A DNA stretch of 30,622 nucleotides from positions 1-30,622 of IMG/VR virus record IMGVR_UViG_3300009180_000141. One strand, 5' to 3'. This DNA comes from a virus. Positions 5,639-30,622 of this stretch are shown here, in pieces; the first letter of the stretch is position 1; every line of letters starts with the position of its first letter. The position numbers and the translations under genes are program-made. The notes under the pieces were generated by a model. It worked only from the letters and a program-made list of their open reading frames with translations, was not told where the DNA came from and searched no databases.

Positions 5639-5863
5639 TTAAAAAGTATTTTTAATATTTTTAAGTAAAGTTTTAATTTCATCTAGAGATGATTTTAAAA
5701 CTCTTAAATCTTCTTCTATATTGGATATTTTTAAATTTTCTTCTTCTCTTCTTTTTTTTATGAGATCATAATTATTTGATGCCATTTCGTCTGTGTTGAT
5801 GATTGCATTAGTATCCAAATTTCGTAATAAATTTGGATAACCTTCTACTTTAGCATATTTCAT
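5639..5863 (-). CDS. Small conserved cyanophage-type protein with C-terminal coiled coil
   Basis: 74 residues. The N-terminal part (MKYAKVEGYPNLLRNLDTNAIIN) is a signature I associate with small proteins encoded beside gp13 in T4-like cyanophages. Residues about 35-74 form a heptad-like amphipathic helix (NLKISNIEEDLRVLKSSLDE), consistent with a short coiled coil. The start ATG overlaps the TGA of the 2139-aa gene in an ATGA, indicating translational coupling. The function is unknown. Association with the neck or baseplate is a guess from position. No signal peptide or membrane segment is visible. Confidence 0.75.
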   Translation of the reverse strand: MKYAKVEGYPNLLRNLDTNAIINTDEMASNNYDLIKKRREEENLKISNIEEDLRVLKSSLDEIKTLLKNIKNTF

Positions 5864-16557: not shown

Positions 16558-16565
16558 TATTTATT
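16558..16565 (-). promoter_or_regulatory. T4-late-like element before the 897-aa gene
   Basis: AATAAATA on the minus strand, only 8 nt before ATG and overlapping the stop of the giant gp7-type gene. As a promoter it would give almost no leader, so this copy is the weakest of the four. Confidence 0.25.
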
Positions 16566-19500
16566 ATTGATTTGCTGATAATAAACTAGCTTGATATATT
16601 TTAAGATCATAATTTGCAGAATTAGTTGGATTGAAATATAAAACATATTGATTACCTACAAAATTATAATCTGATGTAAATGATAGATCTTCATATTCAA
16701 CATCTCCAATTATGTCATATGTAATGTTATTTAAATAATCATTAAAATGTATAGAATTAATTTGGATTAATGATTTTTGTGTGGTAACTCCAATTGTTTT
16801 TTGAACTTCTATGATATAAGATGATGACCCATATGCCCCAGAAATTGTAGATATTCCAATAGAAGTTGTCCCAGATGTAGTTACTCTTGAGCTTGAAATT
16901 TTAGATACTGTTTTTGTAATGGAATTATATCCAGCATAAGTATTTGTTAAAAATTTAATATTTGCTTGAAGAGTGACAGGTATATTTGATATTCCAGTAT
17001 ATGTTAATTCTATATTTGATCCATTAGTACTTATTCCAATTTCTCCAAGATCTTTATTTAAACTTTCAGAGTATAAGTTAGAAAAAATTCCAGTCCTTGT
17101 ATTTACAAATGATGACTCAAAATACTCCTCAATCCCATTGGCCAAAGAAGAAAATCCTACAATTAACTGGCCAGAATTGCATTCTGAAATTGGTATAGTA
17201 TAAAATACTTGAGGAGTTGGAGTTAATGTTGCAGGAAATTGTTGTGTAAGTTCAACTGTCCTTGTGTATCCAATTGATGTTGTTGCAATTCCAACTTGAG
17301 AAGGTGCTGTTTCTTTAAATGCTTTAATATCAATTTTATTATATGGATTTGTGGGACTAAAATATAATAGCATATTATTACTATCATTTGGATTTATTTC
17401 CACAGTAAATTCTCCAAAAATTGACTTTCTGCCTAAAGTTTCAAAATCATAAAAATATGAATATGAAACTAAATTCAAATCATCCAAATCTCTGGTTATA
17501 AAAACTTCAAAATACTCAGGATATTCAAATGAACCTAAAAATGATTTAGTAGATGATAATAAAAATTCATATTTTAATACATTTGTATCTTTACTTTGAA
17601 TAGTATCTATTAATAATTTTGGTGTAATTTTTTCTGTAGTGAATAAAGTTGAAATATCATCTATAGACAAAACTCTATTATTGGTAGACTTTAAACTTTG
17701 CCCTAACCTCAAACTGTTGAATTTTAAATATTGAGAATAAGCTTCATTTGAGGAATCTATATCCTCTTCAGTGACTAAATCTAAATCATGAATAGAATTT
17801 ACATTAGCATATGAAGTTAAAATTACATTAATATTTGATGTTGAATATTTGTTTAGTTCTATTTTGTTAGTTGGTAAAGATTCAACTATCAGATCACTAA
17901 ATTTTTTATATCCAGAAATATGAGATAAATTTGATATTGAAGAATTCCAATTTTGAAATGGAATCTTACTCTTTAGTGAATAAGAAAACTTCTGATAATA
18001 ATCATTATCAGAAAGTTTTTGTATATTTGAAGATAAATATCCTCTATTTTCTTTTCCTCCAATAACTTCAGTTACACTAGAATCTGTTAAAAATATAGAA
18101 TTAAAATTACCAATTTCTAAAATTTTTCCTTGAGATAATGAAGATTTCCCTATAATAATTTGATTTTCTGAAAATTCTAATCCAGTTTTGACCTTTACCA
18201 AATTAGTTATTTTCTCATTTTTAATATTATCAATAATATTAGTATCCAATATACCTTCTCCATTATAAAACTCATTTTCCTTTAATATTGTTTCAATTAT
18301 AGGTATATTTTTGTAAGGAATTACAAATGCAGAATATGATAAATTTGAATCAAAACTTCCAGGATAACTGTTTAATTGATATCTGACAATTGCTGCATCT
18401 TGAGATCCGTATGCAGGATCTACATAACTGACTATAAATGGATCATATTTATAGTCACTACAATTAAAACCATTTCCTATACTACTTGAGTTTACAATTC
18501 CTTCAATTGTAATTTTATCTCCAACATTAATTTCTAAAGGATTTGCAGTTGTAAATCCTGTGACTGGAGTTTGTATTGTTAATGTTATAGTAAATACGCT
18601 TGTTCCAGCAACTGAAGCATTTAATATTTTATAACCATTTCCATTGTTTAGTGTAATTATTCTATTATCATTTGAATTCAACCCATATCCAGGATTTAAT
18701 ATTTTAATTTGATTAATTGATGAATTTTTTAATAAAGATATAGCTGAGAAGTTAGAAATAATTTTATCTTCTTTAAAATTATAGAGTTTTATAATTGGTG
18801 GATTTATGTAATTAGATCCTCCATATATCACATTAATTTTATCTACAGTAAAATTATTTACCAATTTCAATGTAGAAAATATTTTTGTAGATGGTCTTAA
18901 TGTTTTATCAAATGGACATATAAATTGTGTATTATTAACTTTTGTAGAAATAATTTTCCCAATAGAAGTGCTAGATGGAAATAAATTATGACCATTTCCA
19001 CTAATAGTATTAACTGAAGTTATTTTTGGTAATTTTTTATATTGGGATCCTTGTGATAATAGTGTAATGGATTTAATTGGACCCTTAGTATCTGATTTTA
19101 ATACATCATATGAAATTGTGGATATGTCACTAGTATATTTTGATACTTCAGGAGTATTTTTTAAATTAAAAGTAAATTGATAATCTGTAGATGTACTGAT
19201 TGATCCAGTTGTATTGTAAATGCTATTATTGATAATAATACTATTATTATATGGAATTAAATCATCAGTGTATATTTTTTTAGTATTTGATGTTAAAGTA
19301 TAATATAAATTTCTTGGAGTATAATCGCTTATATTTAATGTCAATGATGTTGAAGTTTTAATTACTTCTATTCCGGTTTTAGAATTTCCAATATATCTAT
19401 TTTTAAAGTTGTTGTCTGTAAATAAATTGAATTCAGTATCATTTAATGTTACTGAGGATAGATCAAAAATTACAGGTTGATTTGCATATACATTAATTTT

Positions 19501-22500
19501 TGGATTTTCTTGTGAATTGATTAATACTTTGTAATTAGCACTAGAATAACTTACTACGAATGTTGTAGAAATTCCAGATTTTACATTTAATTTTATTATA
19601 TCATTTGCAATTATTCCATGAGTAGAAGATGTGGAAACCTTGCAAGTGTTTTCAGTTAAACTACCAGTGATTATATTTCTATTTGTAGTAAATTTATGAA
19701 GACCAGATCCTGGTGAACTATAACTAATAAAGTTAGGAGTATTTGTGTCATAAGTATATTGTTTATTATTGACCAAACGTATAACATCATCTTCTAATTT
19801 GATTATATAAAGATTTTGTATTGTATCCAAATTACCTAATTCAGAAACTATAGTAGAATTTCCTGCAGAGTAAGTAATTTTTTCTCCATTTTTAAATTTA
19901 TTATTTGGTAAATATATACCACCTGTTGGTATATATTTTGTATAAGATACTCCATATCCTAAGGGATAAATTGTTAGAGTAGTTCCTATTCCTACTGATT
20001 TATCTGATAGTAAGCAAACAGATTGTGTTGGGTTAAAATAGTATGATTGGTTGATTTCAGAAAATGTGTTTGGATTCTCTTGATATGTATATTCAAATTG
20101 ATTTGAAAGAATCTCTACAGTTTCTGTAGAAAGATGATTTGGAGAACCAGAATCTCTTAAAACATTTACAAGATTATTTTTATAATCCAATCCAATTATT
20201 TTTAAAACTTCATTGCCAATTTTTAAATAAGAATCTACATTAAGTTGTAAAATTGAATCTCGTATTTGAATAGATGTAACTAATCCAGTAACGCTAGAAT
20301 TTGAAATACTTGTGGTAAGACCAGTTTTTATAGATTTAGTTGAAATTTGTCTAAATCCTTCAATATTACTATAAGTGCTACTAGATATTCCAGTTATTTT
20401 TACATAAGTATTATTTTTTAATGAATGATAAGTAGATGCAATTCCAATTACAATATTACCATCAGATATAAATGTTATATTTGATAGTGAATAAGTAATA
20501 TTTTCAATGGTACTTATTCCTACTCCATCTAATTCAGATACTTTTGCAATAACACCTAGACCAGAAGTTCCTTCATTATCAAATACAATAGAATCATTGA
20601 TTTGATAATCTATTCCTCCATTTATAATATCAATATTTTCAACCTTTCCATCTGAAGATTTTTCTACAATAATATCCTTTTGATTAATGTCATTAAAGAA
20701 TTGAAAGTATTCATATACATGATTTTTATCATCTACATTATATGATTTTGTATATTTTGTAATATCTAAATTATTAAAATTTAAATTTTGATTATACTTC
20801 AAATCAAAATTCTCCTTGGGCGCATTGCAATTATAAGTATCTCCTATGATATAAGGAAACTCTGGAGTATCAGAAGTGTCAAATGTACAGAAGTACGCAT
20901 ATACTCCCTTTGGATATTCTGGAGTAATGCAGAATCTTCCATTATGTTCATCTAAATTTCCAGAATTTGTAAATTGATATTCTTCTACAAAGTTAATATA
21001 GGTTGGAACTAGTTTATTTAAACTGTATCCACTTCTCATTCTTACAATTCCACCAGTTCCATCAATATTTTTAAATGCAAAGGGTCCATAAATTGGACAC
21101 CCATCATATGACCACCCAATGATTGGAGAATGTTGTGTTGGAATTGATGATATATTAAAATATTTTCTTAAATTATCAGTGAGAAAATATACTCCATAAG
21201 TATTTCCGATATAAGAATAATTCTTACCAAAAATTAAACCATCTTTAGTTTTGGAAATTGTAAATCTAGTTACATCATTAATAGTCCATGATTTAATATT
21301 TGCTTTTAATTTTAAATTTTTTCCAATTGGAACTATCTCAATAAATGTATTTGTTGATGCATATCCAACTCCAGGATTAATTATTTTAACGCTTGTTATT
21401 TTTCCATCTTGGATAATTGGTTGTAAATTTGCACCAAATCCATTTCCCTGAACTGTAATATTGAAAGAGTTAAAATAATTTTCGCCAGAAGATTTGACAA
21501 TAACTTCATTTATTTTTCCATCAATAATAACTGGCTCTAAGAAACATCCCTCACCTTCTAGAATAGTTACCTCTGGATATTTTTCATAATTAAAGATTGA
21601 AGTATATCCAAAATTATCTACATACTCTGTATGGTCTGCTCTTGGGGAAGCACTTACTACATATCCACTGATATTGGGAACAATAGTTGCATTATAACCA
21701 ATTGTTGATATCCCAGAAACTGTAATATTCCCTAAAATTTCAACTCTAATTGGAGAATATTCTATGTAATAATACGTATATGTACTTCTTGAAGTAATAT
21801 TAATATAAGTTATATAATTTTTAGTTGATGATAATTTAAATCTATTATCGTCAATTTTAACAATATAATAATTTTCATTAACAATTAACCCACCTATTGG
21901 ACCTCCATTAAATCCTGATATTGGTTCATATGAATAAACTACTTCTTCACCTGTAGAAAACCCATGATTTTCTACTTCTATAATATCTTCTTGAATATTT
22001 ACATTAGAATGAATAAATGATATTTTTTTATATTCAAAATCCTTATCATTTTTATCTACAATAACATTATCTATTCCCTTTTTAGGTAATATTGCACTAA
22101 ATTTTTGAATTCCATTTCCATATGTTCTAATATTAATTAAATTTTTTCCAAATAAAGCATCTTCTTTATTAAATGCCAATTTTAGCGAAGTTCCATATCC
22201 AGTATTTACTGCATAATAAATTGCATTATTAATTAAATATCCATCATTAGATACTGTTCCTATACCAATTGGAGATGATCCTAGAGTTTCATATCGAATT
22301 GGTTCTCCAGTTACAAATCTGTGAGGATTATCAAAAATAAAAGTATCTGATATAGTATTAACTATTGAACTTTTTGTTGATGAATTGAATATAACTTCAT
22401 GAGTTACATTTTTCATTTTTACTTTAGTTGAAGTTATATCATTATTCCCACCAAAAATTTTAACAGTAGGAGTTTCTACATAATCAAATCCAGGATCTAC

Positions 22501-24828
22501 AACTGAAATACTTACTTTATTACCTCTTAACTGTGGAATTATTTTTGCATTTGTGTATTCTTGATCATAATATGTAATTTTAAATTGTGGCGGATTGTAC
22601 AAATTATAATCTTCACCAAAATTTAAAACATCTAAAGATACTATTGGTCCATAGTAAACTTTATCAAATGATTTGTAATTTTTAATTTCTACTCCATTAG
22701 TAAAAATACCAATTCCACCTGAAGGAGTTTTTTCCTTTGTCTTAGTTATTTCTGAATTTTTTGGAATTTTTTTAAATAATTTAGATGAATTAAAATTGTA
22801 TCCATATTGATTATTGGGTTTTAATTTAATATTAGTGACTTTTGAGTTAATATTACCTTTTGTGTCATATTCAAATAATTGAACAAATGAAGATATTCCA
22901 ACATTTTCTCTGGAATAGCATAATTTTATTTGAGTAGATGAAATAGTTTTTACATAATAAGATATTCCTGTTTGTATACCTACTTCATTTTTAAAATTTG
23001 AAGTTGTAGAATAATCTACTACAGTTACACAATCTCCATCAAAAAAGTTATATTCAGATTGACTATTTAAAGTATAATCAATATTTACATCAAATGAAGA
23101 TTCAAATTCTAAAGGAGTAATAATATATTCTGGTAACCCATTAGATGTTAAATAATAGTAATTATTATCCAAATATAGATCTTGAATATTTGCAGTAAGA
23201 TTTAAATTTTTATATGATGATTTTTTAAGTTTTCTTCTGAATAACACATTTTTTCCTAATGGAAATTCTACTAAAGGAACAGTAAATTCTTTTGGTGATA
23301 AAACTTTTACTGACAAATCACTAGCAACTAATGTATTAGTATTTTCTAAATATAAATCTACAAAATCTCCAGTTCTTAAATTATGATCATATTTTGTTAA
23401 GGAAGCACCATTTTCTAAAGAAAATCCTTCTTTTTGATAATTTCTAATTTCAGGTGTAATTTCAGTTACTGATACCCCACAAAATACACTGATTGGATGA
23501 TTATAAATTAAAGATTTTGTTAAAGTACTTTCTTCTGTAGATCCAAAACTTTCAATTTGTATTGGATCATTATCCAAAGAATAAATTGCATCTGAAGATT
23601 TTAAACTAGATAAAACATTACACAATCTAAATTTAACAATATTATCTAAATTTTCATTATCATATGCATATACATAATGATCAGAAAATACTTTTGTTTT
23701 TTTGGAAATTGAAGCTGTTACTCCTGTGCAATTTAAAAATTGATTATTTGTTTTATCTGAATAAGATATTATTAAATTTTCTATTTGTAAAGTTCCAGTA
23801 TTGCCAAATCCAATAGTTGAATTTACATTAATGGTATTTGCATTTATTTCAATATCTTCTACTACAAATGTCTTTGGAGTTGCTTTAAAGGTTCCTGAGA
23901 TGCTTCCTTTTGGATTTAAGTTATTTGAATATCCAGAGAATAATTTTAATTTGTAAAAAGTTTCATTGCTATTATTGGTATATGATTGAATATCATAAAT
24001 TGATCCATTTGCAGGTAACACTTCATAATTTGCAAATGCATCTTGATATAAAGTTTGACCCCTAGTATTGTAAGGATTACCTTCCATCAGTTCACATACA
24101 AAAGTTTCTGTTACTACCCACTTGTCATCTGATGGAGTAAAACAATAATCATCAGGTTTAATTATTTTTACTTCTTCACCATAAAGAACTCTGAATAAAA
24201 TCTTAAATGCTTCATCTGTTCCTTTTGATTGATAAAAACTTTTTGCTTTACTTATAAAATTCTGAACATTGATTTTTGAATTAAATTCAATTTCCTCAAA
24301 TCCTGGAGTGAATTGATATTTTGTTTTTCTAAAAAATTCTTGTAAGAATAAATTACTTAAATTATGTACAGTAGAAAGACCAGTATGGGAATTTGATTCA
24401 GTCTGTAAAAATGTTAAATATTCTGGATTATTATCTTCACTAAGAGAACTAATTGCACTGAATCCTCTTATACATCCAGTAAAAGAAGTTGTGGTGATTC
24501 CAGTGTAAGTAATAATTTCATCGTCAATTTTTAAAAGTCCATACTTATTTGGCCAACCATCAGTAGAAGTTACATAAATGGTATCGTCATAAAATTCTAT
24601 ATCAGAAGTTAACTTAGTAGATGCTATTAATTTTTTAGAATCAAATGAATCTATATTTTTATATGATACAAGATTTTCTGCAAGATCTGTGTTTCCACCT
24701 TGAAACTCTTGAGAGTAATAATATTGTGTTAAAAATTCTACAAAATTTGAATTCTCTGAATTTATAAATTCAGGAATCTGATTTTCTAAAATGTCTGTAA
24801 TTTTAACTATATTTTTTTCCTGATTCAT
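16564..24828 (-). CDS. Giant gp7-type baseplate wedge protein with YHYH domain
   Basis: 2754 residues, more than twice T4 gp7 (1032). The N-terminal ~225 residues match the C-terminal domain of T4 gp7 as I recall it. IPEFINSENSNFVEFLTQYY (18-37) compares with MPDSYLLQDSNFEAFCEAYI. SKGTDEAFKILFRVLYGEEV (201-220) compares with STKGIEASYKFLFKVLYNEE. A DDEIITYTGI...CIRGFS module is inserted between them. The rest is a string of beta-type modules: H-x3-TGE (near 840 and 950), PGFDY/PGVGY/GGSNY repeats, and EVLKI...RDSG. A YHYH-type domain lies at about 1225-1330, with GWSYDGCPIYGPFAF, LDEHNGRFCITPEYPKGVY and FPYIIG; the name-giving motif is YAYF here. It follows gp6 by 1 nt, as gene 7 does in T4. 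gp7 joins the wedge to the baseplate; the added modules may face outward (inference). Confidence 0.88.
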   Translation of the reverse strand: MNQEKNIVKITDILENQIPEFINSENSNFVEFLTQYYYSQEFQGGNTDLAENLVSYKNIDSFDSKKLIASTKLTSDIEFYDDTIYVTSTDGWPNKYGLLKIDDEIITYTGITTTSFTGCIRGFSAISSLSEDNNPEYLTFLQTESNSHTGLSTVHNLSNLFLQEFFRKTKYQFTPGFEEIEFNSKINVQNFISKAKSFYQSKGTDEAFKILFRVLYGEEVKIIKPDDYCFTPSDDKWVVTETFVCELMEGNPYNTRGQTLYQDAFANYEVLPANGSIYDIQSYTNNSNETFYKLKLFSGYSNNLNPKGSISGTFKATPKTFVVEDIEINANTINVNSTIGFGNTGTLQIENLIISYSDKTNNQFLNCTGVTASISKKTKVFSDHYVYAYDNENLDNIVKFRLCNVLSSLKSSDAIYSLDNDPIQIESFGSTEESTLTKSLIYNHPISVFCGVSVTEITPEIRNYQKEGFSLENGASLTKYDHNLRTGDFVDLYLENTNTLVASDLSVKVLSPKEFTVPLVEFPLGKNVLFRRKLKKSSYKNLNLTANIQDLYLDNNYYYLTSNGLPEYIITPLEFESSFDVNIDYTLNSQSEYNFFDGDCVTVVDYSTTSNFKNEVGIQTGISYYVKTISSTQIKLCYSRENVGISSFVQLFEYDTKGNINSKVTNIKLKPNNQYGYNFNSSKLFKKIPKNSEITKTKEKTPSGGIGIFTNGVEIKNYKSFDKVYYGPIVSLDVLNFGEDYNLYNPPQFKITYYDQEYTNAKIIPQLRGNKVSISVVDPGFDYVETPTVKIFGGNNDITSTKVKMKNVTHEVIFNSSTKSSIVNTISDTFIFDNPHRFVTGEPIRYETLGSSPIGIGTVSNDGYLINNAIYYAVNTGYGTSLKLAFNKEDALFGKNLINIRTYGNGIQKFSAILPKKGIDNVIVDKNDKDFEYKKISFIHSNVNIQEDIIEVENHGFSTGEEVVYSYEPISGFNGGPIGGLIVNENYYIVKIDDNRFKLSSTKNYITYINITSRSTYTYYYIEYSPIRVEILGNITVSGISTIGYNATIVPNISGYVVSASPRADHTEYVDNFGYTSIFNYEKYPEVTILEGEGCFLEPVIIDGKINEVIVKSSGENYFNSFNITVQGNGFGANLQPIIQDGKITSVKIINPGVGYASTNTFIEIVPIGKNLKLKANIKSWTINDVTRFTISKTKDGLIFGKNYSYIGNTYGVYFLTDNLRKYFNISSIPTQHSPIIGWSYDGCPIYGPFAFKNIDGTGGIVRMRSGYSLNKLVPTYINFVEEYQFTNSGNLDEHNGRFCITPEYPKGVYAYFCTFDTSDTPEFPYIIGDTYNCNAPKENFDLKYNQNLNFNNLDITKYTKSYNVDDKNHVYEYFQFFNDINQKDIIVEKSSDGKVENIDIINGGIDYQINDSIVFDNEGTSGLGVIAKVSELDGVGISTIENITYSLSNITFISDGNIVIGIASTYHSLKNNTYVKITGISSSTYSNIEGFRQISTKSIKTGLTTSISNSSVTGLVTSIQIRDSILQLNVDSYLKIGNEVLKIIGLDYKNNLVNVLRDSGSPNHLSTETVEILSNQFEYTYQENPNTFSEINQSYYFNPTQSVCLLSDKSVGIGTTLTIYPLGYGVSYTKYIPTGGIYLPNNKFKNGEKITYSAGNSTIVSELGNLDTIQNLYIIKLEDDVIRLVNNKQYTYDTNTPNFISYSSPGSGLHKFTTNRNIITGSLTENTCKVSTSSTHGIIANDIIKLNVKSGISTTFVVSYSSANYKVLINSQENPKINVYANQPVIFDLSSVTLNDTEFNLFTDNNFKNRYIGNSKTGIEVIKTSTSLTLNISDYTPRNLYYTLTSNTKKIYTDDLIPYNNSIIINNSIYNTTGSISTSTDYQFTFNLKNTPEVSKYTSDISTISYDVLKSDTKGPIKSITLLSQGSQYKKLPKITSVNTISGNGHNLFPSSTSIGKIISTKVNNTQFICPFDKTLRPSTKIFSTLKLVNNFTVDKINVIYGGSNYINPPIIKLYNFKEDKIISNFSAISLLKNSSINQIKILNPGYGLNSNDNRIITLNNGNGYKILNASVAGTSVFTITLTIQTPVTGFTTANPLEINVGDKITIEGIVNSSSIGNGFNCSDYKYDPFIVSYVDPAYGSQDAAIVRYQLNSYPGSFDSNLSYSAFVIPYKNIPIIETILKENEFYNGEGILDTNIIDNIKNEKITNLVKVKTGLEFSENQIIIGKSSLSQGKILEIGNFNSIFLTDSSVTEVIGGKENRGYLSSNIQKLSDNDYYQKFSYSLKSKIPFQNWNSSISNLSHISGYKKFSDLIVESLPTNKIELNKYSTSNINVILTSYANVNSIHDLDLVTEEDIDSSNEAYSQYLKFNSLRLGQSLKSTNNRVLSIDDISTLFTTEKITPKLLIDTIQSKDTNVLKYEFLLSSTKSFLGSFEYPEYFEVFITRDLDDLNLVSYSYFYDFETLGRKSIFGEFTVEINPNDSNNMLLYFSPTNPYNKIDIKAFKETAPSQVGIATTSIGYTRTVELTQQFPATLTPTPQVFYTIPISECNSGQLIVGFSSLANGIEEYFESSFVNTRTGIFSNLYSESLNKDLGEIGISTNGSNIELTYTGISNIPVTLQANIKFLTNTYAGYNSITKTVSKISSSRVTTSGTTSIGISTISGAYGSSSYIIEVQKTIGVTTQKSLIQINSIHFNDYLNNITYDIIGDVEYEDLSFTSDYNFVGNQYVLYFNPTNSANYDLKIYQASLLSANQ

Positions 24829-24829
24829 T

Positions 24830-26737
24830 TTAAATTCTTACCTTGTTTCCAGTGAAATAACTTGATTCAGGATTAAATTTGCTTCCAGAGCTATTTTCTC
24901 CAGATGCAACAATATCCTTTTCCATTGTAAAATTACTATTTCCAACATCTAATTTTAAGTAAATAGATTTTTTGGCAATAATATCATTTGAATATGGAGT
25001 TGCTTCAATTTCAATAATATTATTTGGTTTTGTAGTTGAAGTAACATTTATATTATCTATATTCAAATTTCCATTAATATAATCAATTGTTCCTATATTG
25101 CTAGAAACAGTTTTAATGGAAGATCTATCAAGATAAAATATAAAAAGTTTTCCAGTTTCCATAGAATTATTTGGAATATCTGATATAAAAACTTCATTCG
25201 CAATTCCTCGAATATAAAATCCACTAGATCTTATATTATATGCACCTTCAGCAGTTGAAATTGCAGTTTCTGTATGAAATCTATTTTCAAAACATATTAG
25301 ATAATTTGTTGGAGAATTTAATATTACTCCTAAATTTCTTCTAATTTTAATTTTTGTAATATTTGATGTGATAGAATTGCTAGTAGCATCTATAACTCTA
25401 AGACATTTGCTATATTTAAATCTTCCTCCAAATTTGTTTAGTTCTGTTGAATTTGAAAAACTGTTCACAGAATCAATAATCTTGGTCTGAAGATCATTTA
25501 CAGAACCAACAAAATTTGAGTTATAATAAACAGTAGAATCTAGTTCAACATAAACTACATTAATATCTACAAATTGTTGTTTGATTCCTGCTATTGTATA
25601 TTTCTTTAATGATTGTAAAATATATTCTTTTGTTGCTTCTGATAGATAATCTGAATTTTTTGGTTTTGCTGCAATGAATACTCTTCCATATTGTGGAGGA
25701 TCTAGATCCTCTCCACCATATGCAGTTACTGATTCTATATTTGGGTAAATAGATGGTATTAATGCTTCATAATCACTAGAAGTTACTGCTCTATATTGAG
25801 ATGAATAAAGTCTTGGTGCATAATATCTAACAGACTCTATAGATTGAATATTATCTCCATTCTGTGATGCTGTATTAGCGATTATAGTTCCAACTTTACC
25901 ACTTAAATTATTTCCTGTATTATTATCACCTAAGATGGTTCCAGAAAATGTAAAGTTAGAAGCACCATTACCATCTTTACCATTGGTGGTAATATATGTT
26001 GCAGTTATATAATTCAGATTTGATAATTTACTTCCAATTATTCCATCTCCAAAAAATATTTCATATTTTTCATCAGATATCTCTTGAGTTAAAAATATTT
26101 TAGAAATGGAAGATATTCCTACAATATTATCTACAGCAGAATATTCTTCTGCTGTACTATCATTTTTAGTATTTTTAACATTAACTCTAATTGTAGATGT
26201 ATCAATATATGGATTTGGTAAAATATATTTTTGATTTGGTTGTGAAGTATCTACTGTAAAGCTCTTACTTAAAAATGATCCTTCATAAATGTCAACTTCA
26301 CTAAAAATTGCTTCTCCATTTGATACTCCAACTGTAATATCTTCTGGAATTGAAAAAATATAACTTGTATTGTCTAAATTACCAGTACAAACTGTACCAG
26401 CCTTAAGTGTAACTGTTTGAACTGAAGTTGCAATATCAGTTAAGATGAAAGAAATATTTGCTTTTGCTGCACGTCTTGATAAAGGAACATATCCAATATT
26501 TCTTGCAAGAGATACTACATTTTCACGAATTGTAGCAGAATCTAAAAATGCCTCATTCGTCACCATATTGGTGTTATAGGCAGTTAGATATGTGTTATAT
26601 GCAAGAACATCAATTAGAACTGAAAAATTAGAACCTTCAAAATCAAAGTCTGTAAAAGTTGAACTTGCTCTCAGGTAATCTTTAATAGATGTTCTAATCT
26701 GATCAAAATCTAGATTAGTAAACTGTATAAATGCCAT
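24830..26737 (-). CDS. 6: Baseplate wedge protein gp6
   Basis: 635 residues; T4 gp6 is 660. gp6 forms the continuous inner ring of the baseplate (the gpJ-like fold of contractile tails). Diagnostic segments: DFDFEGSNFSVLIDVLAYNT (30-49, compare DYDFEGSRLNVLCDLLAYNT in T4); ENVVSLARNIGYVPLSRRAA; FFGDGIIGSKLS (near 228); TTNGKDGNGASNF (compare STNGADANGAVGF); SDYEALIPSIYPNIESVTAY; and VFIAAKPKNSDYLS (near 352, compare AFIAAKPKSGLYL). The start ATG overlaps the stop of gp25 by one base (TAATG), indicating tight coupling. The length is close to T4, so this inner-ring protein has not gained the modules seen in its neighbours. Confidence 0.96.
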   Translation of the reverse strand: MAFIQFTNLDFDQIRTSIKDYLRASSTFTDFDFEGSNFSVLIDVLAYNTYLTAYNTNMVTNEAFLDSATIRENVVSLARNIGYVPLSRRAAKANISFILTDIATSVQTVTLKAGTVCTGNLDNTSYIFSIPEDITVGVSNGEAIFSEVDIYEGSFLSKSFTVDTSQPNQKYILPNPYIDTSTIRVNVKNTKNDSTAEEYSAVDNIVGISSISKIFLTQEISDEKYEIFFGDGIIGSKLSNLNYITATYITTNGKDGNGASNFTFSGTILGDNNTGNNLSGKVGTIIANTASQNGDNIQSIESVRYYAPRLYSSQYRAVTSSDYEALIPSIYPNIESVTAYGGEDLDPPQYGRVFIAAKPKNSDYLSEATKEYILQSLKKYTIAGIKQQFVDINVVYVELDSTVYYNSNFVGSVNDLQTKIIDSVNSFSNSTELNKFGGRFKYSKCLRVIDATSNSITSNITKIKIRRNLGVILNSPTNYLICFENRFHTETAISTAEGAYNIRSSGFYIRGIANEVFISDIPNNSMETGKLFIFYLDRSSIKTVSSNIGTIDYINGNLNIDNINVTSTTKPNNIIEIEATPYSNDIIAKKSIYLKLDVGNSNFTMEKDIVASGENSSGSKFNPESSYFTGNKVRI

Positions 26738-27141
26738 TAGTATCTAGTTGGTTGTAATATGAAACTGATTGCCTGAGTTGGCACTGCTAAACCTACGATA
26801 TCATAGACAATATAAACATTAAGTTCATTATCATCAGGAAATACATTTACTGTAACTTTTCTTGTAATGACTCTAGGTTCAAAATTAGAAATCAATATTC
26901 TAATTTCTTGTTCTATGGGATCTGCAATGCCACTATCAGCAAGTTCAAAAAAGTAATTTTCAACTTTTGATCCCAAAAGTGAGTTAAAAAATCTTTCGCC
27001 AACCTTTGTTCTGATTAAATTGACTACAGATCTTTTAATTGAATCTTCATTTTTAAGAACAGCAATGTCATTAGTCACAGGATGACGTAAAAACGATAAA
27101 CTAATGTCCTTAAATCCCCTAGAAATGTTCTCTAATGCCAC
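26737..27141 (-). CDS. 25: Baseplate wedge protein gp25 (lysozyme-like family), GTG start
   Basis: 134 residues; T4 gp25 is 132. Member of the GPW/gp25 family, which bundles the wedge core and touches the sheath in all contractile injection systems. Family signs are SIKRSVVNLIRTKVGERFFN (34-53, compare SIKNSLLGIITTRKGSRPFD), the start of the family-typical EPR motif at 88-90 (NFEPRV), and alternating strands in VTVNVFPDDNELNVYIVYDI. The start codon is GTG. A TAA stop in frame lies immediately upstream, so no earlier start is possible, and the N-terminus aligns with the family length. An AATAAATA late-promoter-like element lies at 27165-27172. No strong Shine-Dalgarno sequence is visible. Confidence 0.96.
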   Translation of the reverse strand: MALENISRGFKDISLSFLRHPVTNDIAVLKNEDSIKRSVVNLIRTKVGERFFNSLLGSKVENYFFELADSGIADPIEQEIRILISNFEPRVITRKVTVNVFPDDNELNVYIVYDIVGLAVPTQAISFILQPTRY

Positions 27142-27164
27142 TTATTGTTCAAATTAGATACATT

Positions 27165-27172
27165 TATTTATT
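27165..27172 (-). promoter_or_regulatory. T4-late-like promoter element before gp25
   Basis: AATAAATA on the minus strand, 23 nt before the GTG of gp25. It differs from the T4 late consensus TATAAATA in the first base only. It overlaps the stop codon of the 81-aa gene. Confidence 0.4.
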
Positions 27173-27413
27173 GAGGTTTGCCATAAGAAGGTTCAGTTCC
27201 ATATTCCCAATCATCATAGTCACTATCATTTCGAATTTTCTCATGAAATTCTGTTTGTTCTTTTAAATGATGAGTTCCTTTAGGCATATCATCATGCATA
27301 ATTTCCTGTAGAGTTCTTTTTTCCTCTAGTGCTCCATAATCAGTTGCAAGTTTAGTGGTTCCCCACATCTTATACATGTATTCTTTGTCTCTGTCTACTA
27401 GATTCTTAGCCAT
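27168..27413 (-). CDS. Small acidic hypothetical protein at head of the structural operon
   Basis: 81 residues, rich in Asp, Glu, Lys and His (MAKNLVDRDKEYMYKMWG ... HDDMPKGTHHLKEQ ... DDWEYGTEPSYGKPQ), with no signal peptide or membrane segment. I do not recognise a domain. It has the best ribosome-binding site in the window: AGGAG 4 nt before ATG. Part of that site lies at the foot of a 7-bp hairpin (27421-27439). It is the first gene after the terminator at 27524-27547, so it heads the leftward structural operon. It precedes gp25 by 26 nt. Confidence 0.75.
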   Translation of the reverse strand: MAKNLVDRDKEYMYKMWGTTKLATDYGALEEKRTLQEIMHDDMPKGTHHLKEQTEFHEKIRNDSDYDDWEYGTEPSYGKPQ

Positions 27414-27417
27414 TTTT

Positions 27418-27439
27418 CTCCTAATTCAAAGTGAATTAG
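27418..27439 (-). promoter_or_regulatory. Hairpin overlapping the ribosome-binding site of the 81-aa gene
   Basis: An inverted repeat CTAATTC / GAATTAG (7 bp, 5-nt loop, 27421-27439) lies in the leader. The Shine-Dalgarno AGGAG occupies 27418-27422, so two of its bases are in the 3' arm of the stem and the rest directly follow it. Folding could hide or expose the site at the head of the structural operon. Regulation is inference. Confidence 0.45.
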
Positions 27440-27523
27440 AACTTTTAAAGGGGTTTCTATCCCTATCTAGTACTATCTATGAAAGAGAAACGCTTGCGCT
27501 CTGTAAGAGATGCGTGAGAGCAC

Positions 27524-27547
27524 AAAAAAAGGACCTACAAGGGTCCT
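27524..27547 (-). terminator. Rho-independent terminator
   Basis: On the minus strand a 6-bp stem AGGACC / GGTCCT with a 6-nt loop is followed directly by seven T residues. It lies 9 nt beyond the stop of the 46-aa gene and about 110 nt before the 81-aa gene, so it separates the glycosyltransferase transcript from the structural operon. The stem is short but GC-rich for this genome. Confidence 0.8.
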
Positions 27548-27556
27548 CTGAGAATA

Positions 27557-27697
27557 TTACCTACCTTGGCCTCTATACTTTTTAGTAGGTCCATTACGAG
27601 AGCTTCTAGAGTGCTTTGTGTTCTTAGATGTGCCCTGACGAGTATTCTTGGGCCTACTCTCAATTTTGTTGCCATTTAGGGAAGCTCTTTTTGCCAT
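27557..27697 (-). CDS. Very basic 46-residue cyanophage-type protein
   Basis: A 46-residue frame from ATG at 27697 to TAA at 27557-27559. The product begins MAKRASLNGNKIESRPKN and ends SSRNGPTKKYRGQGR. About a third of its residues are Lys or Arg and acidic residues are nearly absent, so nucleic-acid binding is plausible. I associate this pattern (KxTRQG near the middle, YRGQG near the end) with small conserved proteins of T4-like cyanophages of unknown function. It follows the 54-aa gene by 5 nt. Its stop is 9 nt from the hairpin of the terminator, which fits a last gene of the upstream operon. Confidence 0.75.
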   Translation of the reverse strand: MAKRASLNGNKIESRPKNTRQGTSKNTKHSRSSRNGPTKKYRGQGR

Positions 27698-27702
27698 ATT
27701 GT

Positions 27703-27867
27703 TTAGTTATCAGAAATACTTACACATTCTACCACAAGATCCTCTGGATTAGGAACCCCTGTCTTATAAAATTGATTGGCAAGTTCATCCATAATTTCAA
27801 AGGTATCATTTTCTGATATCTCTGTGTAAATTTTTCTACCTTCACAATAGATATTGTACAAGTCCAT
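27703..27867 (-). CDS. Small hypothetical protein (54 aa)
   Basis: 54 residues from ATG at 27867: MDLYNIYCEGRKIYTEISEN, then DTFEIMDELANQFYKTGVPN and PEDLVVECVSISDN. It is acidic, with predicted mixed alpha/beta character. The pattern (YxVYCEGRKIY, then GxPNPEDL) resembles small conserved proteins of T4-like cyanophages of unknown function. It begins 4 nt after the stop of the family-25 glycosyltransferase and is followed 5 nt later by the 46-aa gene, so it belongs to the same transcript. No function can be given. Confidence 0.7.
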   Translation of the reverse strand: MDLYNIYCEGRKIYTEISENDTFEIMDELANQFYKTGVPNPEDLVVECVSISDN

Positions 27868-27871
27868 TAAA

Positions 27872-28570
27872 TTAAATATAATCTGTGAGTTTTGAAAGTC
27901 TGGAATCAGTAGATCTTTCTAGCATATTTAGTTCATGTCTACCAGAATTATCAGATAAACCATCATCTGCAGCAAAAATCTGTGGAGATATTCCAATTGA
28001 TTTGCCCCTTGGTTGAATATAATTCACAAAATATCTATCTAATTCCATAGGAAATGATTGTTGATAAACTTCTACAAGTTCTTGCATTAACTCTTTAGAA
28101 GGACTATATCCAAACAATCCCCAGAAATTATGTGCCCTGTAAATGTGCTCAGAGATGCATTCATTAACTAATGAATAATCCCACATAGAACAATCATCAG
28201 ATAGGGGAATAAATCCTAGATACAATAATTCTGAATTATACAGAATACTTGTATCTAGTTTTTCCCAGATTTGATGAAGTTTAATGTTAATTCTACAATC
28301 ATCTTCTACAATTAGAATTCTTTTATAATTATGTTTTAAAGCATCTTGATAAATTGAAAGATGAGAAATGGCACATCCCAAATAACTTGAATTTCTAAAA
28401 TAAGGATTTTCTAATTTAGACCATAAATGATTTAAAATTGATCCATTTGTAGCACCAAATCTTTCATAGTGATGAATATCTACAAAAGAAAAACGTTTCT
28501 GTGAAACATTCATTCTTTCTTTCTGATGATGTAAATTTAAAATATAGATATTATCAAAAAATTCATTCAT
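27872..28570 (-). CDS. Glycosyltransferase family 25-like protein
   Basis: 232 residues. It resembles GT25 / LPS-biosynthesis type glycosyltransferases (GT-A fold, nucleotide-sugar dependent). Signs are the N-terminal strand and loop IYILNLHHQKERM (8-20), the GCAISHLSIYQDAL segment (65-78, family pattern G-C-x-x-S-H-x-x-x-x-x-x-A), the strand RILIVEDDCRI (84-94) with EDD at 89-91 as the likely metal/nucleotide site, FGYSPSKELMQEL (153-165), and PMELDRYF (174-181). Length is in the normal range. It would transfer a sugar in the host cytoplasm. The acceptor is unknown; virion protein, host envelope glycan and nucleotide are all possible. It lies 9 nt downstream of another glycosyltransferase, suggesting joint action. 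Confidence 0.85.
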   Translation of the reverse strand: MNEFFDNIYILNLHHQKERMNVSQKRFSFVDIHHYERFGATNGSILNHLWSKLENPYFRNSSYLGCAISHLSIYQDALKHNYKRILIVEDDCRINIKLHQIWEKLDTSILYNSELLYLGFIPLSDDCSMWDYSLVNECISEHIYRAHNFWGLFGYSPSKELMQELVEVYQQSFPMELDRYFVNYIQPRGKSIGISPQIFAADDGLSDNSGRHELNMLERSTDSRLSKLTDYI

Positions 28571-28579
28571 ACTATCTTA

Positions 28580-29347
28580 TTAGATAACTCTTGTTTTTTC
28601 ATGTCCTACTCGTATTTGTGGGTGGCACCAAATTTCAAGGCCACATTTACGAATTGCATCAAGGCAAAATGATACATCTTCTCCGCACATATCCTGAACC
28701 TCTCCAGATTCAAAGACTTGCATCTGAGGAGCAAACCACGGATACTTCATTTCAGGATGCTCAAAAACTCCATGCTTAATCAGAACCCAACCAAAGCCTG
28801 TGTAATCCACAGTGAATGGTTTCTTTCTGTTGGAAATGGTGTCTACCATTTCATGATTCATTACGCCACCATTATTCTTGAAGTCATTTTCTTCCAACCA
28901 ATGCGCAACTGATGTGGTACGTCCATCCTCTGTAGCATACCAACCACAAGCAATATCCTTGTCCATTTGTACCAGTGCCCAGAATGCATCAGTATTGAAA
29001 ACAATATCTGAATCAATCCATAGCTGATAATCATAATTAAGTTTACCATCCCATGGAAGTTGATCTGGACCACGTAGTACATTTGCACCAAGACATTTGC
29101 AACGTGCAAAGTTTACCATGGAAGAATAATCCTGTGATATTTGAATGCTTGCACCAGCCTGCACTAAATCAAAACATAACTGAACAAAACTCTTCAAAAA
29201 TGTATATGATACTCCACGTCCTGGAAGACAAAATACAATGCTCTTGCCACGAATTTTTTCTAAAACTTCTTCCCTATTAAACAGAGATTCTGAACCTTGT
29301 TCCTGTGCTTCTGGCTTTTTTGCCTTTACTGTAAATCCTTTTGCCAT
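28580..29347 (-). CDS. GT-A-fold glycosyltransferase-like protein
   Basis: 255 residues. Features expected for a GT-A transferase: strand KSIVFCLPGRGVSYTFLKSF (35-54); ARCKCLGANVLRG (81-93); YQLWIDSDIVF (107-117) with a DSD metal/nucleotide motif at 112-114; VDYTGFGWVLIKHGVFE (180-196); CGEDVSFCLDAIRKCGLEIW (221-240) with an acidic pair in the position of the catalytic base; and HPQIRVGHEK (242-251) with a late His that could bind metal. The first 25 residues are a Lys/Glu-rich extension. Substrate is unknown. It is preceded by a 55-nt untranslated stretch after the 54-aa gene that contains an AATAAATA element, and is followed at 9 nt by the GT25 gene. A second start is not obvious. Confidence 0.8.
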   Translation of the reverse strand: MAKGFTVKAKKPEAQEQGSESLFNREEVLEKIRGKSIVFCLPGRGVSYTFLKSFVQLCFDLVQAGASIQISQDYSSMVNFARCKCLGANVLRGPDQLPWDGKLNYDYQLWIDSDIVFNTDAFWALVQMDKDIACGWYATEDGRTTSVAHWLEENDFKNNGGVMNHEMVDTISNRKKPFTVDYTGFGWVLIKHGVFEHPEMKYPWFAPQMQVFESGEVQDMCGEDVSFCLDAIRKCGLEIWCHPQIRVGHEKTRVI

Positions 29348-29399
29348 ATAATTAATTCAAATAATTTTGCGATATAGTACCAATTCAATGATACTCCAT

Positions 29400-29407
29400 T
29401 ATTTATT
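29400..29407 (-). promoter_or_regulatory. T4-late-like element before the glycosyltransferase genes
   Basis: AATAAATA on the minus strand, 52 nt before the ATG at 29347, overlapping the stop of the 54-aa gene. The 55-nt gap after that gene is one of the longer gaps in the leftward series and suits a promoter. Confidence 0.4.
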
Positions 29408-29567
29408 TGTTGTCAATAACCTTCACTATCTCAAATTCTTTTAACTGAAATTTAGTAGAAAGACCTGCATGTATCATCTGAGAGATGTCTTGAAGAATTT
29501 TCTCAGCATGACTGAGAGATCTTCCTTCATAAAACACTCTGTCTTTTGCAATCACTTTATATTTCAT
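29403..29567 (-). CDS. Small hypothetical protein (54 aa) overlapping its upstream neighbour
   Basis: 54 residues: MKYKVIAKDRVFYEGRSLSH, then AEKILQDISQMIHAGLSTKF and QLKEFEIVKVIDNK. The pattern strand-turn-helix-strand is that of a small alpha/beta fold. The ATG overlaps the TGA of the 59-aa frame (ATGA), a usual sign of coupled genes, and GGGGGT lies 5 nt upstream of ATG as a possible ribosome-binding site. No family recognised. The stop codon overlaps the AATAAATA element proposed as a late promoter for the glycosyltransferases. Confidence 0.6.
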   Translation of the reverse strand: MKYKVIAKDRVFYEGRSLSHAEKILQDISQMIHAGLSTKFQLKEFEIVKVIDNK

Positions 29568-29743
29568 TTTTTACCCCCAAAAAATTTTTTTATATAATGG
29601 GACCCAATTATATTTACAATTTCTCTCAGGCACAACAAATAATACTCAATCTCCTCCCTGGGACCAATCACAGTACCATACAGATTCTCATAGATAAACC
29701 CTATGGGGGATTTTTTATTGGGAAAAAAATTTTTTAAGAACAT
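29564..29743 (-). CDS. Small hypothetical protein (59 aa)
   Basis: 59 residues from ATG at 29743: MFLKNFFPNKKSPIGFIYEN, then LYGTVIGPREEIEYYLLCLR and EIVNIIGSHYIKKFFGGKK. An in-frame TGA 21 nt upstream leaves this as the only ATG. The segment GTVIGPREEIEYYLLCLREI reads like a real folded protein. Support comes from the ATGA overlap with the next gene and from the sigma70-type promoter at 29853-29881 upstream. The long A and T runs near both ends are unusual for coding sequence. The start region has no clear Shine-Dalgarno sequence. Function is unknown. Confidence 0.5.
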   Translation of the reverse strand: MFLKNFFPNKKSPIGFIYENLYGTVIGPREEIEYYLLCLREIVNIIGSHYIKKFFGGKK

Positions 29744-29829
29744 GAAATAATTCGCTTGTTTTCAAAGGTTTGTAGGTTAGGGTAGTTTGCTTTTTTTCGA
29801 ACCGCATAACAAACCCCACAATAATTATA

Positions 29830-29850
29830 ATTAACAATATAACTGTTAAT
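29830..29850 (-). promoter_or_regulatory. Operator-like inverted repeat at the leftward start site
   Basis: ATTAACA and TGTTAAT form a perfect 7-bp inverted repeat with a 7-nt spacer, just downstream of the -10 hexamer and covering the expected start of transcription. This is a typical place for a repressor site; alternatively it is a weak 5' leader hairpin. Confidence 0.4.
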
Positions 29851-29852
29851 TC

Positions 29853-29881
29853 ACTATAGCATCAATCACATATATTGTCAA
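29853..29881 (-). promoter_or_regulatory. Leftward sigma70-type promoter
   Basis: Minus strand TTGACA (29876-29881), 17-nt spacer, TATAGT (29853-29858): 11 of 12 consensus bases with optimal spacing. Transcription would start near 29846 and run into the 59-aa gene and the glycosyltransferases. It suggests host-polymerase (early) expression of that group. Confidence 0.75.
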
Positions 29882-29910
29882 TACTTATCACTTAACACTG
29901 TTTAATACTT

Positions 29911-29930
29911 ATCACAGTGTATCACAGTGT
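29911..29930 (+). repeat. Tandem decamer ATCACAGTGT x2
   Basis: The decamer ATCACAGTGT occurs twice head to tail at 29911-29920 and 29921-29930. The first copy also pairs with ACACTG at 29895-29900 as an inverted repeat. It leads directly into the 24-bp array. Confidence 0.75.
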
Positions 29931-30060
29931 TTATAATATACTAATATTGACTGTTTTTAATATACTAATATTGACTGTTTATAATATACTAATACTCACT
30001 GTTTTTAACTATAAGATATTGACTGTTTATAATATACTAATACTCACTGTTTTTAACTGA
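29925..30060 (+). repeat. 24-bp tandem repeat array (five full units and one partial)
   Basis: Units begin at 29925, 29949, 29973, 29997, 30021 and 30045, exactly 24 bp apart. Most units have the form (C/G)A(C/G)TGTTT-A/T-TAATATACTAATA. Units 3 and 5 are identical; units 4 and 6 share CACTGTTTTTAACT. So there is a 48-bp higher-order period as well. The exact spacing suggests iteron-like protein binding sites on nearly the same face of the helix every two units, or a replication-slippage product. Confidence 0.9.
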
Positions 30061-30065
30061 CAGAT

Positions 30066-30091
30066 CCTGTGGAAAACTAGTTTTCCACAGG
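30066..30091. repeat. Perfect 26-bp palindrome made of two TTTTCCACA boxes
   Basis: The sequence reads CCTGTGGAAAAC, TA, GTTTTCCACAGG and is identical to its reverse complement over all 26 bases, with no spacer. It contains one nonamer on the minus strand (30068-30076) and one on the plus strand (30081-30089). It lies immediately after the 24-bp array. Confidence 0.95.
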
Positions 30092-30101
30092 TAACTAATA
30101 G

Positions 30102-30110
30102 TTTTCCACA
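30102..30110 (+). promoter_or_regulatory. DnaA-box-like TTTTCCACA
   Basis: Exact nonamer in the longer context GTTTTCCACAGG, 12 nt after the palindrome's second box and in the same orientation. Confidence 0.6.
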
Positions 30111-30180
30111 GGGTATATATACTTATTGACACTGAGAACACTAATAAACACTGGGGTTTCACTCATAATACACTGTTGCC

Positions 30181-30189
30181 TGTGGAAAA
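30181..30189 (-). promoter_or_regulatory. DnaA-box-like TTTTCCACA
   Basis: Exact nonamer on the minus strand, again with the full 12-base context GTTTTCCACAGG. It lies 37 bp before the -35 hexamer of the rightward promoter, where a bound DnaA could affect transcription. Confidence 0.6.
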
Positions 30190-30226
30190 CTATCACTATG
30201 CTGGGACTATATCTGCCCCCTGGGAC

Positions 30227-30255
30227 TTGACAAATAAACTGTGCTGTGTTATAAT
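30227..30255 (+). promoter_or_regulatory. Perfect consensus sigma70 promoter, rightward
   Basis: TTGACA (30227-30232), 17-nt spacer, TATAAT (30250-30255), with TG one base before the -10 (extended -10). All 12 hexamer bases match consensus. Transcription would start near 30262 and go rightward through the ATAATACACTATAAT array, opposite to every gene in the window and antisense to the gene ending at 30509. Confidence 0.8.
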
Positions 30256-30307
30256 GTGCAGGCCAAGATCACAATAAGATTACACATTTACACACACATA
30301 CACACAT

Positions 30308-30418
30308 ATAATACACTATAATTAAACTAGATAATACACTATAATCAGAAACTACATAATACACTATAATTCAAGGCATTTATACACTATAATCAGAAAC
30401 TACATAATACACTATAAT
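30308..30418 (+). repeat. Five-copy ATAATACACTATAAT array, 23/25-bp spacing
   Basis: Copies start at 30308, 30331, 30356, 30379 (first bases degenerate) and 30404, so spacing alternates 23, 25, 23, 25. Copies 2 and 4 are followed by CAGAAACTAC, giving a 48-bp super-repeat. Each copy ends in TATAAT. The mean period equals that of the array at 29925-30060, although the sequences differ. Confidence 0.9.
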
Positions 30419-30426
30419 TACTAATC

Positions 30427-30447
30427 TTTTCCACAGCTTGTGGAAAA
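30427..30447. repeat. Hairpin of two inverted TTTTCCACA boxes
   Basis: TTTTCCACA (30427-30435) and its reverse complement TGTGGAAAA (30439-30447) are separated by only GCT. As DNA sites they are two inverted DnaA-box-like nonamers; as RNA they would be a 9-bp stem with a tight 3-nt loop. Confidence 0.85.
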
Positions 30448-30452
30448 CTATA

Positions 30453-30493
30453 ATACATTTATTAATACATTTATATAACATTAATAAATGTAT
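30453..30493. repeat. 14-bp AT-rich inverted repeat
   Basis: ATACATTTATTAAT (30453-30466) and its exact reverse complement (30480-30493) with a 13-nt spacer. Only two G/C pairs occur in the stem. It stands between the DnaA-box hairpin and the stop of the gene entering from the right. It could be a DNA-unwinding element or a weak transcription end; there is no T run typical of a terminator. Confidence 0.8.
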
Positions 30494-30508
30494 CATTACA
30501 CACGGAAA

Positions 30509-30622
30509 TCATTCAATCAAACAGTTTAGAAATGGGAATTGAACCGCATAATGATTTAACAACACTCCATCAGGTGTAGATATAATCCCAAGTTCATTCA
30601 TTAGAATAATAAACTCCTCATA
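30509..30622 (-). CDS. 3' end of an unidentified gene entering from the right edge
   Basis: The minus-strand frame is open from the last base of the window to TGA at 30509-30511. The last 37 residues are YEEFIILMNELGIISTPDGV followed by LLNHYAVQFPFLNCLIE. The amino-acid composition and lack of stops suggest a genuine C-terminus, but the piece is too short to identify a family. It ends 15 nt before an AT-rich 14-bp inverted repeat that opens the repeat-rich non-coding block. Confidence 0.5.
   Translation of the reverse strand, partial: YEEFIILMNELGIISTPDGVLLNHYAVQFPFLNCLIE

Follow-up and report, generated by a model that had tools for sequence, protein, structure and literature searches.

A conserved promoter core with cyanobacterial-type DnaA boxes as a candidate replication origin of T4-like cyanophages

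T4-type phages are the textbook example of replication by a phage's own machinery from several unrelated origins, and to our knowledge they are not thought to use host DnaA. What, then, is the role of a cluster of cyanobacterial-type DnaA boxes in the DNA of a T4-like phage? The window analysed here is the entire IMG/VR record IMGVR_UViG_3300009180_000141 (30,622 nt; 28% GC). Among its genes are gp25 (26737-27141) and gp6 (24830-26737) of a T4-like baseplate, further structural genes including one of the terminase small-subunit type and, next to these, a glycosyltransferase-like gene (28580-29347) whose cultured-phage matches are nearly all from cyanophages. Two very long open reading frames (ORFs) of 2139 and 2754 amino acids are located in the structural region, at 5860-12279 and 16564-24828, respectively, and the larger occupies the place of gp7 in other cyanophages. 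The boxes lie in a stretch of 765 bp (approximately 29744-30508) that proved to be without a long ORF, as had been described in a first-pass annotation of the sequence. The small ORF at its left border had no Pfam match, an Rfam scan of 26000-30622 returned no RNA family, and the main genes on both sides of the stretch run leftward.

The first-pass annotation had listed six exact copies of the nonamer TTTTCCACA, and all six were recovered at the same places and on the same strands, within 380 bp (30068-30447) of the gene-free stretch (Table 1). Only one further copy was present in the 30.6 kb, at 4653 within a gene. That far fewer copies would be expected by chance was borne out by simulation: dinucleotide shuffles of the whole window contained a mean of 0.76 copies and never reached seven, and Markov simulations of the 765-bp region (orders 1-3) gave means of 0.01-0.32 and never reached six in 2000 runs.

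Table 1. Features within and bordering the gene-free stretch, in window coordinates.
Feature	Position	Strand	Remarks
Small ORF, 59 aa	29564..29743	-	left border of gene-free stretch
Sigma-70 promoter TTGACA-N17-TATAGT	29853..29881	-	11/12; reads towards glycosyltransferase/gp25/gp6 genes
Tandem array, 24/48-bp units (TGTTTATAATATACTAATATTGAC)	29928..30058		AT-rich, lineage-specific
Perfect 24-bp palindrome CTGTGGAAAACTAGTTTTCCACAG	30067..30090		two divergent boxes; read from sequence
DnaA-box nonamer TTTTCCACA	30068..30076	-	left array, exact match
DnaA-box nonamer TTTTCCACA	30081..30089	+	left array, exact match
DnaA-box nonamer TTTTCCACA	30102..30110	+	left array; 21 bp from 30081 box, same orientation
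Lone inverted DnaA box TTTTCCACA	30181..30189	-	first base 46 bp upstream of -35
Conserved core: promoter + GCCAAGATCACAATAA..ACATTTA at predicted transcript start	30222..30299	+	model R1 E = 2.8e-16; alignment A1
Extended -10 sigma-70 promoter TTGACA-N17-TATAAT	30227..30255	+	12/12, TG before -10
Tandem array, 25/48-bp units (ATAATACACTATAATCAGAAACTAC)	30308..30420		AT-rich, lineage-specific
DnaA-box nonamer TTTTCCACA	30427..30435	+	right pair, exact match
DnaA-box nonamer TTTTCCACA	30439..30447	-	right pair, exact match
AT-rich element, perfect 14-bp inverted repeat ATACATTTATTAAT..ATTAATAAATGTAT	30453..30493		arms 30453-30466, 30480-30493
3' end of next gene	30509..30622	-	open at window edge; converges with core promoter

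The first-pass annotation overlooked what is most conserved in the locus, namely the promoter core and the sequence downstream of it. The consensus promoter that had been reported is indeed a perfect extended sigma-70 promoter, and in the core it is followed by GCCAAGATCAC-WAYAA..ACATTTA, the whole being non-coding and highly conserved. No ORF lies behind this promoter and, given that the main genes on both flanks are leftward, it faces against them. Seven relatives of freshwater type keep the leftward promoter at 29881-29853, the -10 box being weaker in L026. A second conserved non-coding sequence, TTTGTAGGTTAGGGTAGTT, which reads AACTACCCTAACCTACAAA when written as 5' leader of the leftward transcript, is located at 29760-29800 of the window as well as at L009 6040-6090, L010 6035-6065 and L011 4815-4850; the Synechococcus phages Sf-FS3 and DSL-LC02 share it, and an altered form is present in S-SCSM1.

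The two iteron-like arrays that had also been pointed out are both present, but their weight was overstated: they were found only in this phage and the near-identical L008 and were absent from the other relatives read. Iterons were therefore rejected as the key feature. An iteron origin is defined by conserved direct repeats bound by Rep, whereas these arrays were conserved no further than L008 in the relatives read, and no Rep gene was recognised in this fragment. In some phages tandem repeats follow the core, with a unit that differs by lineage, for example around AGAGCACTTTAC in S-CAM9 (L223 about 2080-2148) and GGTTTATAAGAGTATTAGAGAA in S-SKS1 (L503).

The AT-rich inverted repeat of the first-pass annotation was found with both arms intact; it is a candidate unwinding element and the counterpart of an AT-rich ACATTT-TTAAT tract that adjoins the right boxes in relatives. 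Downstream of the core in relatives, AT content climbs within approximately 200 bp from 0.65 to 0.70-0.76. The tract is unstable, yet it is not the least stable stretch in a window of 28% GC, and DNA stability was set aside as indecisive proof of an unwinding element in such a background. The overall order is left phased boxes, lone inverted box, promoter, conserved transcript start, AT-rich tract, right boxes and AT-rich ACATTT-TTAAT element, the order of the last two being variable.

Loci of relatives were fetched via the glycosyltransferase-like gene, and a box cluster was found at the same place in L012, L013, L016, L017, L022, L023, L024, L025 and L026 and further upstream in L071. Given that the window is the full IMG/VR record, whole-genome counts of the nonamer were made on relatives. 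Seven of the ten copies in DSL-LC03 (172.8 kb) fall within 457 bp, at the core, which places the element at 80.1-80.6 kb in that genome, and box pairs or triples are clustered at one place each in DSL-LC02, S-SM2 and P-TIM68. Syn9 has a box pair at 52565 and 52589, also at the core (element near 52.57-52.68 kb), and the boxes of S-PM2 are located at 19231-19264. One exact and one near copy were present at the same place in S-SCSM1, S-SKS1 has one exact copy of TTTTCCACA and two of TTATCCACA, and the remaining complete isolates counted genome-wide contained none. The nonamer is thus not equally frequent elsewhere in the genome, and many relatives have it at the corresponding syntenic position, two points on which the first-pass annotation had let its proposal depend. 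In the S-PM2 record, two annotated tRNAs span the box triple (L518 5178-5334; S-PM2 19177-19333); ARAGORN found no tRNA in that part, which places the tRNA annotation, and not the boxes, in doubt.

Side-by-side reading revealed a sequence shared between the boxes, consisting of TTGACA, 17 bp, a -10 box, approximately 7 nt and then GCCAAGATCACWAYAA..ACATTTA. A pattern search that used only the downstream part, and neither promoter nor boxes, yielded 103 stretches, and addition of the window gave 66 non-redundant stretches with full flanks; 48 were counted as true cores, with the promoter identified by pattern in 45 and by eye in three, and the other 18 were chance matches. In this box-blind set, TTTTCCACA ranked first among all 9-mers up to 350 bp from the core, both in total copies and in the number of sequences with at least two copies. 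There were 143 copies near the 48 cores versus five in 292 kb of distant flank, a density approximately 250 times as high. At least one box accompanied 32 of the 48 true cores and none of the 18 chance matches, the exact box being absent from a third of the cores. In the reverse test, 38 of 80 loci chosen by a box pair only matched the core model R1, and all 38 cores were within 400 bp of a box, compared with 4.5 expected. The lone inverted box is positioned 42-48 bp upstream of the -35 box in many relatives as well.

Over 24 complete phage genomes, R1 gave one clear match each in twelve cyanophages and a weak match in Syn9, and no match in T4 or in P-SSM2, S-T4, B23, Sf-CH5, S-RSM4, P-SSM4 and P-HM2. 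A strict promoter-core pattern was applied to 11 isolates, ten of which lacked a strong R1 match, the other being Syn9 with its weak one, and found none. S-PM2, which R1 misses, has next to its box triple a degenerate core, recognised by eye, in which the spacer is shortened. All 13 isolates matched by R1 have the core 2-10.5 kb upstream of gp25 and facing against that gene, and 77% of the coding sequence around cores is opposite to the promoter, so that the core transcript is probably non-coding. The core is thus an element that occurs once per genome at one syntenic place and is common to many T4-like cyanophages. This pattern of occurrence was computed directly, as were boxes, promoter and conserved core themselves and the likeness to host arrays described below.

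To which protein might these boxes be addressed? The nonamer TTTTCCACA is the cyanobacterial DnaA-box consensus, and DnaA binding to such origins has been demonstrated in other cyanobacteria (PMC4674748, PMC7198777). Close pairs of the nonamer were found in 94 of 116 cyanobacterial genomes, in which a reversed control pattern was nearly absent. Of the same-strand pairs, 36 of 41 in phages and 49 of 67 in hosts were spaced by 10-12 or 20-22 bp, with peaks at 11 and 21-22 bp in both. The phage boxes are flanked as A-G-box-G-G, in agreement with the host flanks, and point variants are rare (143 exact copies versus at most eight of any single variant). Upstream of dnaN in Cyanobiaceae, the family of the likely hosts, which the CsoS2 family marks in members tested, TTTTCCACA is the commonest box form, with 24 copies in 29 loci where none would be expected. 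Boxes aside, the most widespread 9-mers in these loci (L552-L604) are GTAGTAGTA and CTACTACTA, each present in 20 of 29 and reminiscent of DnaA-trio repeats. Given that box sequence, flanks, spacing and the commonest host form upstream of dnaN all agree, the phage boxes are likely to bind host DnaA. Together with syntenic conservation, these likenesses lend good support to the first-pass identification of cyanobacterial-type DnaA boxes. A site for another phage or host protein that shares the DnaA-box sequence, in a control region unrelated to DnaA, would fit with the replication of some cyanobacterial lineages without DnaA (PMC7198777) and with the fact that DnaA binding to the phage sites is deduced from sequence comparison; given that cyanobacterial chromosomal arrays agree with the phage boxes in sequence, in flanking bases and in 11/21-22-bp phasing, we consider such a site very improbable.

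If the boxes are addressed to DnaA, they might act simply by absorbing it. DnaA sinks of the datA type are clusters of strong DnaA boxes outside oriC, as is the phage box cluster, and perfect phased boxes on multiplying phage genomes might titrate host DnaA in the manner of E. coli datA and so halt replication of the host chromosome. Almost every phage box is the perfect nonamer, whereas those of picocyanobacterial oriC are often weaker variants (TTTTCCCCA, ATTTCCACA, TTTTCCTCA), so that the phage sites could out-compete those of the host. A sink, however, needs no promoter, conserved transcript start, AT-rich tract or fixed place, whereas the phage element has a conserved promoter, an AT-rich tract and a fixed architecture common to many phages; moreover, the boxes number only two or three in some phages and are missing from a third of cores. 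Titration as the main function thus appears improbable.

The arrangement of the promoters suggests another role, in which DnaA bound between the divergent promoters (29881-29853 leftward and 30227-30255 rightward) would switch early transcription on or off, or drive a regulatory antisense RNA, and sense the replication state of the host, with replication starting elsewhere. Both promoters match the consensus strongly, relatives have kept the leftward one, the lone inverted box of many relatives occupies a place usual for an activator, and DnaA boxes outside oriC are known to regulate bacterial transcription (PMC7198777). The conserved promoter nevertheless faces against the genes with no ORF behind it, and right-hand boxes and an AT-rich tract 50-250 bp downstream of the core would be of little use to a simple regulator. 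We therefore regard this role as unlikely to be the principal one, although DnaA-controlled transcription and titration are both possible alongside use as an origin.

We prefer, as somewhat more probable than not, a reading in which a T4-like cyanophage (Kyanoviridae) has its main origin of replication in this element, which would be a hybrid between an origin of T4 type and a DnaA site of bacterial type. As in a DnaA-dependent origin, a cluster of boxes of the host form, with host-like phasing and flanks, occupies a short intergenic region. The AT-rich tract next to the boxes resembles that of relatives but is not uniquely unstable in this window. Cyanobacterial oriC (boxes beside dnaN; Synechococcus elongatus, Anabaena, Cyanothece) has the same TTTTCCACA, flanks and 11/21-22-bp spacing (PMC4674748); the phage element differs in that it belongs to a lytic phage genome and has at its centre a strong promoter whose transcript start is conserved, and in that helicase and primase are supplied by T4-like phages themselves. 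The minimal T4 origins oriF and oriG consist of a promoter and an AT-rich downstream unwinding element, with an R-loop of the transcript priming synthesis, and oriE has an early-mode promoter and 12-nt iterons (PMC3016281). The phage element likewise presents a promoter followed by AT-rich DNA, its promoter is of the early type, and it is located near baseplate genes, as is oriF, annotated 83 bp from gene 25. A middle-mode promoter with a MotA box was not found, the promoter being of the full -35/-10 sigma-70 type. T4 has several origins per genome with no common sequence motif, whereas the cyanophage core is one sequence conserved across genera and accompanied by host DnaA boxes; a review of T4 replication never mentions DnaA (PMC3016281).

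Lambda and plasmid origins, for their part, use host DnaA at or near the start site with involvement of a transcript, but no O- or Rep-type initiator was recognised here and the replication machinery is T4-like. We envisage that a T4-like promoter with an AT-rich downstream tract gained host-DnaA boxes. Early in infection, host RNA polymerase would start at the sigma-70 promoter (30227-30255) and make a non-coding transcript through the AT-rich tract; host DnaA would bind the phased boxes on both sides and help to open the AT-rich DNA, or keep it open; and the transcript would prime leading-strand synthesis, with loading of the phage primosome (gp41/gp61/gp59). DnaA binding, the transcript, R-loop priming and origin activity are all what we infer from the architecture of the element.

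An origin was also the candidate function named in the first-pass annotation, and it remains the best fit, but the GC-skew check gave it no support: in seven complete genomes the detrended cumulative skew neither switched nor reached an extreme at the core with any consistency. This test is weak because skew follows one-sided coding, and a skew switch at DnaA-dependent origins is common rather than universal. Also counting against an origin are the cores without boxes, the several isolates without a core match, and the fact that DnaA normally loads DnaB, not gp41. A single theta origin, which might coincide with the core, has been predicted for Syn9 (as cited in PMC2984593) and speaks for the origin reading.

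Phage origins as such are already known; the new element in our leading explanation is a conserved phage replication origin with host DnaA boxes, and a full-text search of a literature library returned no paper that by its title or abstract describes DnaA boxes, or a DnaA-linked replication origin, in cyanophages. Whether many T4-like cyanophages start replication at a single conserved hybrid origin, with host DnaA acting at a transcription-primed T4-style site, and whether phage replication is thereby linked to host replication control, is a joint proposal on which we are evenly balanced. The element is also present in model cyanophages, in Syn9 and, in degenerate form, in S-PM2, and its exact coordinates in cultured phages make the origin question directly testable. 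If the proposal is correct, it would show by what means phages abundant in marine and fresh waters couple their replication to the host.
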